Shown here: positions 1 through 1,596 of the stretch, in pieces
Layout of the letters: every line of letters starts with the position of its first letter
Numbering within the stretch: the first letter of the stretch is position 1
Made by a program: the position numbers and the translations under genes
Notes under the pieces: generated by a model
Told to the model about the DNA's origin: nothing
Seen by the model: only the letters and a program-made list of their open reading frames with translations
Database searches by the model: none
Source of the DNA: a virus
Strand: one strand, 5' to 3'
IMG/VR virus record: IMGVR_UViG_3300031772_000117
Coordinates: 1-37,600 of that record
Length of the DNA: 37,600 nt

Positions 1-91
1 TTTTTGGGTAGATACAAACGGCAATAGATGGACTGTGGCCACGCATACCGAGGCGGAAGCTGTGGCCAAGAGTCTAACTCTCAAGAACTGC
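1..91 (+). repeat. 91-bp direct repeat, copy 1 (N-terminal coding part of Cys-triplet genes)
   Basis: This stretch is repeated at 713-803 and 1188-1278 with at most two mismatches. It encodes the N-terminal domain shared by the three paralogues. The window begins exactly at the first base of the repeat. Confidence 0.9.
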
Positions 92-622
92 GAAAACTGC
101 GACAACTGCAACGACTGCACGGGCTGCAAGTACTGCAACGACTGCGAAAACTGCACGGGCTGCGACAACTGCACGGGCTGCAAGTACTGCACGGGCTGCA
201 AGTACTGCAATGACTGCAACGACTGCACGGGCGGCAAGTACTGCAACGACTGCTACAACTGCAACGACTGCGACAACTGCACGGGCTGCAGGTACTGCAA
301 GCACTGCACGGGCTGCCAGTACTGCTACAACTGCGACAACTGCACGGACTGCAGGTACTGCGACAACTGCAACGACTGCACGGACTGCAAGCACTGCAAG
401 CACTGCAAGCACTGCAACGACTGCTACAACTGCGAAAACTGCACGGGCTGCACGGGCTGCGACAACTGCAACGACTGCACTGGCTGCAGGTACTGCACGG
501 GCTGCAAGCACTGCAAGCACTGCAAGTACTGCTACAACTGCGACAACTGCGACAACTGTATGAATTGTAACGACGCAACGGAATTAAATAACCAAATCGT
601 AGCTAGTTTTAAAGATTTTTAA
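2..622 (+). CDS. Cys-triplet repeat protein, copy 1 (5' partial)
   Basis: Only the 3' part is in the window; the reading frame is already open at base 2 and ends with TAA at 620-622, giving 206 visible residues. By comparison with copies 2 and 3, about six N-terminal residues are missing. A short N-terminal region ([10 protein letters not shown]...SLTLKNC) is followed by 54 consecutive three-residue units ending in Cys, made from a small vocabulary ([21 protein letters not shown]). One unit is TGG, where Cys is replaced by Gly. A Cys-free tail (NDATELNNQIVASFKDF) ends the protein. No signal peptide or membrane segment is visible. I do not recognise a characterised family. The dense CxxC spacing suggests metal or Fe-S binding, or a disulphide-rich repeat fold, but this is inference. 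Confidence 0.8.
   Translation, partial: FWVDTNGNRWTVATHTEAEAVAKSLTLKNCENCDNCNDCTGCKYCNDCENCTGCDNCTGCKYCTGCKYCNDCNDCTGGKYCNDCYNCNDCDNCTGCRYCKHCTGCQYCYNCDNCTDCRYCDNCNDCTDCKHCKHCKHCNDCYNCENCTGCTGCDNCNDCTGCRYCTGCKHCKHCKYCYNCDNCDNCMNCNDATELNNQIVASFKDF
92..566 (+). repeat. 9-bp-period tandem repeat encoding x-x-Cys units
   Basis: Low-complexity DNA with a strict 9-base period. Almost every unit ends in a codon of the form NNC followed by TGC. The same composition fills about 804-1130 and 1279-1584. Units are shuffled between the three genes rather than kept in order, which suggests expansion and contraction by slippage or recombination. Confidence 0.85.
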
Positions 623-630
623 AAAAAAAC

Positions 631-659
631 TTGACAAAGCATTGCAATGGTGTTATATT
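631..659 (+). promoter_or_regulatory. sigma-70-type promoter for Cys-triplet copy 2 operon
   Basis: TTGACA at 631-636, a 17-bp spacer and TATATT at 654-659. A run of nine A lies just upstream (UP-element-like). The downstream leader TATTACCGACTCAAATTAAA is repeated after the promoter at 1813. Confidence 0.8.
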
Positions 660-695
660 ACCGACTCAAATTAAACAACAGCGAAAGGAAGTGAG

Positions 696-1169
696 ATGAG
701 AATAATAAACGATTTTTGGGTTGATACAAACGGCAATAGATGGACTGTGGCCACGCATACCGAGGCGGAAGCTGTGGCCAAGAGTCTAACTCTTAAGAAC
801 TGCTACAACTGCGACAACTGCGCGGGCTGCGACAACTGCGACAACTGCAACGACTGCAACGACTGCAACGACTGCACGGGCTGCAAGCACTGCACGGGCT
901 GCAAGCACTGCAACGACTGCACGGGCTGCAAGTACTGCGCGGGCTGCAAGTACTGCAACGACTGCAGGTACTGCACGGGCTGCAAGCACTGCACGGGCTG
1001 CAAGCACTGCGACAACTGCGACAACTGCACGGGCTGCGAGCACTGCACGGGCTGCAAGTACTGCTACAACTGCGACAACTGCACGGGCTGCAGGTACTGC
1101 ACGGGCTGCAGGTACTGTAATCACTGCACGTGCGGTGAGGGTAACATTAACAACAACGAAAGGAAGTGA
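696..1169 (+). CDS. Cys-triplet repeat protein, copy 2
   Basis: Complete paralogue of 157 residues. The ATG at 696 follows a good ribosome-binding site (GAAAGGAAGTGAG). The N-terminus reads [16 protein letters not shown] and the shared region ends in LTLKNC. Then come 37 consecutive x-x-Cys units and a short tail, TCGEGNINNNERK. Gly-centred units (TGC, AGC) are usually followed by a KYC, KHC or RYC unit, so a hexapeptide pattern overlies the triplet. The stop codon (1167-1169) lies inside the ribosome-binding region of copy 3, whose ATG is one base further on, so the two are probably co-translated. Function unknown; metal or cluster binding is a guess from the Cys spacing. Confidence 0.85.
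   Translation: MRIINDFWVDTNGNRWTVATHTEAEAVAKSLTLKNCYNCDNCAGCDNCDNCNDCNDCNDCTGCKHCTGCKHCNDCTGCKYCAGCKYCNDCRYCTGCKHCTGCKHCDNCDNCTGCEHCTGCKYCYNCDNCTGCRYCTGCRYCNHCTCGEGNINNNERK
713..803 (+). repeat. 91-bp direct repeat, copy 2
   Basis: Second copy of the repeat at 1-91. I see two base differences from copy 1: GTA to GTT in a Val codon and CTC to CTT in a Leu codon. Confidence 0.9.
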
Positions 1170-1170
1170 G

Positions 1171-1485
1171 ATGAAAAATATTAACGGTTTTTGGGTAGAT
1201 ACAAACGGCAATAGATGGACTGTGGCCACGCATACCGAGGCGGAAGCTGTGGCCAAGAGTCTAACTCTTAAGAACTGCGACAACTGCGACAACTGCAACA
1301 ACTGCTACAACTGCGACAACTGCCAATACTGCTACAACTGCGACAACTGCGCGGGCTGCAAGTACTGCACGGGCTGCAAGAACTGCACGGGCTGCAAGTA
1401 CTGCGCGGGCTGCAACGACTGCACGGGCTGCAAGTACTGCACGGGCTGCAAGTACTGCAACGACTGCACGGGCTGCAAGTATTGA
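1171..1485 (+). CDS. Cys-triplet repeat protein, copy 3, ending at an in-frame TGA
   Basis: The ATG at 1171 is preceded by AAAGGAAGTGAG, as in copy 2; the frame is open further upstream, but that part is the tail of copy 2 read in another frame. The product starts [16 protein letters not shown] and has 23 Cys units. It stops at TGA (1483-1485) exactly where the period demands a Cys codon, TGC in nearly every other unit. The repeat continues in frame after the stop to TAA at 1594-1596. The short product is 104 residues; the uninterrupted form would be 141. This is either a nonsense mutation, a read-through or recoding event, or a sequencing error. Confidence 0.7.
1188..1278 (+). repeat. 91-bp direct repeat, copy 3
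   Basis: Third copy of the repeat at 1-91, differing from copy 1 only at the CTC/CTT Leu codon. Confidence 0.9.
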
Positions 1486-1596
1486 ACGGGCTGTAAGCAC
1501 TGCACGGGCTGTAAGCACTGCGCGGGATGTAAGTACTGCACGGGCTGCAAGTACTGCACGGGCTGCAAGTACTGCGAGGGTTGTAATGAAATTTAA
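1486..1596 (+). other. in-frame continuation of Cys-triplet copy 3 beyond TGA
   Basis: Eleven more units ([18 protein letters not shown] ...) follow the TGA in the same frame, ending EGCNEI and TAA. The first three Gly-centred units use TGT for Cys, whereas upstream units are almost all TGC. The next gene starts at 1586 inside this segment, so the original gene boundary was probably here. Confidence 0.75.

Follow-up and report, generated by a model that had tools for sequence, protein, structure and literature searches.

The window analyzed here is a whole IMG/VR record, a linear viral fragment of 37.6 kb. At its left end, three adjacent frames on the + strand (genes A, B and C) share a near-identical N-terminal header ending in SLTLKNC, followed in register by a run of triplets of the form x-x-Cys (xxC). 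Gene A (2-622, +) is cut at its 5' end by the contig edge and comprises a partial header, an array of 54 triplets (83-568, +) and the tail NDATELNNQIVASFKDF. Because gene A begins before the contig, its start and promoter are out of sight. Gene B (696-1169, +) has a header, the putative N-terminal cap (696-794, +; supported by alignments with homologous headers and by a model of the header of a relative, locus L089), and an array of 37 triplets with zero exceptions (795-1127, +). Its C-terminal residues are the translated leader of gene C, whose ATG lies two bases past the gene B stop. Gene C (1171-1485, +) has a header and 23 triplets, and ends at a TGA (1483-1485) that replaces a Cys codon. 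Followed in frame, array C (1270-1584, +) holds 35 triplets, counting the TGA-containing triplet 24; the untranslated rest of the gene (1486-1593, +), consisting of 11 triplets and the end, overlaps the next ORF, which starts at 1586. The runs are far longer than expected by chance, and Tandem Repeats Finder called them as period-9 arrays.

A preliminary description of this DNA had noted three neighboring genes with a nearly invariant header and 54, 37 and 35 triplets in differing order. That picture holds, but only 23 triplets of gene C are translated. The further statement that the Cys pattern continues without a break has to be dropped: triplet 17 of array A (227-235) reads TGG, with Gly for Cys at 233-235, and gene C has its TGA.

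Between copies, 89-91 of the 93 bases of header DNA agree (96-98% identity), which points to recent tandem duplications as the origin of the three genes. The 126 units of the arrays comprise only 26 different 9-mers, with nearly one spelling per unit type, and the arrays nearly always use one codon per amino acid, with mixed codons in the remainder of the phage. This small set of 9-mers and the use of single codons indicate that 9-bp words were recently copied and shuffled to build the arrays. The order of units differs among arrays A, B and C. Identical units are avoided at adjacent positions (lag 1, z = -5.2), and the periodicity of unit order gave no clear coil signal (lag 4, z = 1.9). A diversity-generating retroelement was considered and rejected: whole units are shuffled, and no reverse transcriptase gene was recognized in the ORF list of the window. 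The contig edge falls inside the repeated header, so assembly may have affected both the number of copies (at least three) and the order of units; similarly, 12 of 69 related loci stop at a contig edge within an array. Given these edges and the short identical units, unit order and unit number should be checked.

We favor reading the TGA of gene C as a plain nonsense mutation or an assembly error, given how related genes are broken. Selenocysteine, considered because the TGA stands for a Cys codon, seems less likely, since in relatives the gene is interrupted by TGA at a non-Cys position, by TAA or by a frameshift, and there is no tRNA gene in the whole window.

A sigma-70-like promoter (TTGACA-17-TATATT; 11 of 12 consensus bases, 17-bp spacer) is predicted upstream of gene B (631-659, +). 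A second copy (1813-1841, +) precedes an ORF at 1881-2534 and the replication genes. A 23-bp promoter/leader stretch is identical at 653-675 and 1835-1857 and occurs nowhere else in the window. The case for these promoters rests on the duplication, because the promoter scan as a whole returned hardly more promoters than were found in shuffled sequence. The genes downstream share homology and gene order with the replication operon found in Acinetobacter phage Scuro and Shewanella phage SppYZU01, and the PolA-type polymerase is 51-54% identical to those of the two phages. In Scuro and SppYZU01, a divergent helicase gene directly precedes the replication operon, and no xxC gene separates the two; in the window, that spot at the head of the operon is taken up by the xxC block (at least 1.6 kb). 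The neighbors of xxC genes in relatives include YqaJ, ERF, DnaB and repressors. The earlier suggestion of an early-type promoter is therefore upheld for a sigma-70-like element that is duplicated before gene B and the next operon, at the head of replication functions. It does not extend to gene A, whose start is off the contig, or to gene C, which follows gene B and for which no promoter of its own was seen.

The ORF at 1881-2534 contains 45-bp repeats (2200-2354) that encode PPPPPVTEATGTQTL. Two other xxC phages also have nearby short-repeat genes (L008, 2400-4434, and L009, 1260-1958; DUF7666 plus ASGxxxx repeats, and GGxIRG repeats), which gives the impression that solenoid genes cluster in one region.

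A profile search of phage genomes, as proposed in the preliminary description, matched all three genes to PHROG 15341, whose function is unknown (E = 7.6e-27 for gene A, 3.6e-28 for gene B and 1.1e-17 for gene C). The matches span header and array, and Cys composition supplies part of the score, as profile scores on such Cys-rich sequences partly mirror Cys content. Genes A, B and C had no matches in Pfam or NCBIfam, and PADLOC matched none of the window genes. Among 50,697 phage records, the header was found in only ten, all from Campylobacter; Flavobacterium phage FL-1 alone had the C-terminal domain that marks the wider family. In IMG/VR, a search with the N-terminal header found 46 loci, and one with the C-terminal domain at least 437 (80 were kept). 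In bacteria, peptide patterns located 3 loci in about 85,000 species, and a profile search of 297 genomes from one order detected 5, some of the matches being pentapeptide proteins recognized by their C-terminal domain. Matches in Acidovorax phage AP1, Aeromonas phage PS and a Furfurilactobacillus plasmid were set aside as low-complexity frames that lack the header. Searches of the literature for phage proteins with CXX or CXXC repeats yielded no description of the family, and a paper on the cysteine-rich rusticalin proved unrelated. From these searches, the xxC proteins appear to form a widespread phage family that has no name, abounds in viral metagenomes but is nearly missing from isolate phages and Pfam, and is thus under-studied.

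Two groups of relatives are informative. The PHROG 15341 members of Campylobacter firehammerviruses (CP21, CP220, F379 and others) resemble the window genes in the header, the xxC register, the variable arrays and their being encoded by phages. Most of them are flanked by portal and DNA ligase genes and present in a single copy, and their outward residues are far more diverse than those of the window. The second group, from IMG/VR and Flavobacterium phage FL-1, is defined by a C-terminal domain with the motif WHTCxTTHCRAGW. Its arrays are of the SxC type and are preceded by either of two different headers, one of them related to that of the window (the 46 loci). Genes A, B and C do not have this C-terminal domain, which most relatives carry, and the first residue of their triplets is T, N, D, K or Y instead of S.

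The Cys position is the most constant feature of the arrays. Across 73 arrays, the third residue is Cys in 2016 of 2034 triplets (99.1%), a tally that takes in the Furfurilactobacillus plasmid set, which is probably unrelated and adds six Arg exceptions. The three-residue register is kept in all 73. In the rare cases where relatives deviate from Cys, the residue is usually A, S, L, G or F, in register, as expected for a core. In the Campylobacter phages, Cys occupies 325 of 332 positions (244 TGT, 81 TGC), while the first triplet residue can be nearly any amino acid. Because Cys is kept in both codons while its neighbors vary, we conclude that it is selected as an amino acid. Replacement by Ala or Ser occurs at under 1%, more rarely than pure packing would allow, so the thiol itself seems to be needed; this would speak for thiol chemistry acting besides packing.

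In contrast to the Cys, array length is not conserved. Proteins with both ends have 7 to 53 triplets, and Campylobacter phage CP21 has 76. There was no preference for multiples of four, and even and odd numbers of Cys were found in 27 and 23 cases, respectively. At the Campylobacter portal-xxC-ligase locus, related phages have intact arrays of unequal length or broken ones: the gene is interrupted in four phages (loci L105-L107 and L110), namely CPt10 and CP20 (TGA), CJLB-12 (TAA) and CJLB-14 (frameshift), and intact in close relatives. Judged from these comparisons, the xxC gene is dispensable and fast-changing in those lineages. The tandem copies in the window, together with the range of lengths and the broken copies in relatives, agree with the earlier view of a modular, fast-changing family.

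The strongest functional clue comes from the C-terminal WHTCxTTHCRAGW domain. Of the classifiable proteins with this domain, 64 have an xxC array in front of it and 8 have pentapeptide repeats; no other repeat was seen there. The pentapeptide nature of the swapped module is confirmed by PF00805 (E = 6.5e-58), and one alphaproteobacterial MAG holds both versions. Since the same domain stands behind both repeats, xxC and pentapeptide repeats are interchangeable modules, and the xxC array takes the position that a pentapeptide beta-helix has in other proteins. Since the C-terminal domain is missing from the window copies, this reasoning applies to them by way of the header and array that they share with these relatives. 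The domain is helical in a model of the relative L089; it had no Pfam match, and a fold search with it gave no useful match. This apparent interchangeability and the abundance of the family in viral metagenomes go beyond the preliminary description.

Pentapeptide repeat proteins (PF00805; Qnr, MfpA) resemble the xxC proteins in their short units, in their position in the swap and, in the low-confidence model described below, in having four units per coil. They differ in that the xxC unit has three residues rather than five and its core residue is Cys rather than Leu or Phe. Pentapeptide repeat proteins have been defined by at least eight contiguous pentapeptides of the type [STAV][DN][LF][STR][G] (PMC8145042); by this sequence definition, genes A, B and C do not belong to them, as they had no PF00805 or other Pfam match.

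Structure prediction, also proposed earlier, gave a beta-solenoid for gene B at low confidence. The AlphaFold model, built with 17 relatives, is a solenoid with a bridge residue at every third position (pLDDT 58.8, pTM 0.40; the other four models had pLDDT of 39-46). This low-confidence model is compatible with four triplets per coil, as in a quadrilateral beta-helix. In the L089 model, the header is a beta-hairpin plus helix with pLDDT above 90, and most of the array is below 50 past the first coils. Among solved structures that match the model in coil length, the Tenebrio molitor antifreeze protein (1EZG) comes closest; the gene B model (pLDDT 58.8) aligned to it over 81 of 82 residues with VIA-align 2 (Z = 7.7, rmsd 3.1, 25% identity). 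The alignment is nearly gap-free, and the coils are therefore of equal length. We take this match as support rather than proof, because large right-handed helices of other coil size have Z scores similar to or above it. Foldseek found no significant match to the gene B model in the PDB. A predicted protein in BFVD (A0A5B8IEK9, Mimiviridae sp. ChoanoV1, annotated TNFR-Cys) superimposed on the model with an rmsd of 1.2 over 113 columns; this giant-virus protein is probably another xxC array. Taken together, the predicted fold is a beta-solenoid with 12-residue coils; the low confidence of the models, the lack of a clear lag-4 signal in unit order and the lack of a preference for array lengths in multiples of four count against it.

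In the Tenebrio protein, a right-handed beta-helix, positions 2, 5, 8 and 11 of each 12 residues face inward, and C2 and C8 are bonded (PMC8038014). The 12-residue coil with each third residue inward is as in the low-confidence xxC model. Unlike the xxC proteins, 1EZG is a secreted insect protein with a TCT ice face and has Cys at only two of the four inward positions. The repeat that marks Tenebrio-type antifreeze proteins (TCTxSxNCxxAx, Thr ice face) does not occur in the window proteins, in which there is no TCT repeat, and phmmer to 1EZG gave only E = 0.2. We found no evidence of homology or ice binding that would link the two.

We propose that the xxC genes encode accessory phage proteins that would be expressed early in infection. 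The short header would cap a beta-solenoid in which each coil consists of four triplets (12 residues), with every third residue, Cys, turned into a narrow core and the other two residues forming the outer surface. Slippage or recombination between identical 9-bp units would lengthen, shorten and shuffle the array while keeping the reading frame, so that surface and length change fast and the core stays Cys. Since the xxC module occupies the place of the pentapeptide beta-helix in related proteins, it probably works alike. We consider the chances of a Cys-cored beta-solenoid used like a pentapeptide helix to be evenly balanced. Of the roles suggested in the preliminary description (metal or Fe-S sequestration, redox buffering or a repeat scaffold), the scaffold fits best. 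The rigid, variable surface might bind a host or competitor macromolecule, although a role in host takeover or counter-defense is a tentative extension that we think is more probably wrong than right. By analogy, the partner may be an enzyme that acts on DNA, though the arrays are not strongly acidic. DNA mimicry through negative charge was rejected, as the arrays are only mildly acidic (25 D+E and 16 K+R in array A, 14 and 13 in array B).

The strictness of the Cys position, much greater than packing requires, is also an argument for a different reading, that of a metal-thiolate protein whose array coordinates Zn, Cu(I), Fe or Fe-S clusters and serves its own folding, starves or buffers the host, or protects the phage. 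Each unit provides a CxxC motif, no signal peptide is visible, and the reducing cytoplasm makes disulfides unlikely. However, there is no match to a ferredoxin, metallothionein or other metal-protein family, array lengths show no multiples of four ligands, and the recurrent neighbors include no metal or Fe-S genes. A bacterial ferredoxin (4Fe-4S; CxxCxxCxxxCP, Fer4) was rejected on the lack of Pfam and NCBIfam matches and of Pro after Cys in the arrays, and the sequence features of metallothioneins, short proteins with CxC and CxxC clusters and few aromatics that bind d10 metals through Cys thiolates, are not those of the arrays, which have no profile match, many Tyr and His residues and no CxC; identity as a ferredoxin or metallothionein is not supported so far. 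We regard metal binding by the array as doubtful, if worth keeping in view. It can be reconciled with the solenoid fold, with metal held within the tube. The two readings combined, a tube whose continuous column of thiolates holds a row of metal ions or clusters and whose length is adjusted by recombination, would amount to a metal-thiolate rod used by phages, which we consider improbable.

The resemblance to 1EZG, a disulfide-dependent fold, raises the prospect of a solenoid locked by disulfides, like the beetle antifreeze protein, that becomes rigid only once oxidized upon lysis, in the periplasm or in the virion. The lack of a visible signal peptide, the early gene position and the absence of a preference for even numbers of Cys make this quite unlikely. 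It is less likely still that these are expanding tandem-repeat genes of little function, heading for decay. The nonsense codon in gene C, the broken genes of the four Campylobacter phages and the single spelling per unit, a sign of recent expansion, are what such decay would leave. Against this, Cys survives the TGT/TGC divergence and broad change of its neighbors, header and C-terminal domain are conserved across hundreds of viral loci, and similar outward residues (D, G, N, Y, H, R) recur in lineages with different codon spelling. A RiPP precursor, with the header as leader and the Cys array as enzyme-cross-linked core, would account for the conserved N-terminus and the variable, Cys-rich stretch behind it but is highly improbable, as the core reaches 76 triplets, most relatives have a predicted folded C-terminal domain after the array, and no modifying enzyme was seen by eye in the window or recurs beside relatives (one Campylobacter copy does have a radical SAM gene in its vicinity).

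If the Cys-cored solenoid reading is correct, phages would have, in addition to the pentapeptide helix, another solenoid made of short units. Its unit, at three residues, would be the smallest, its core would consist entirely of cysteines, and recombination would alter its surface without loss of frame. The family would make a case for testing counter-defense by variable solenoids, and may include a metal-thiolate rod.
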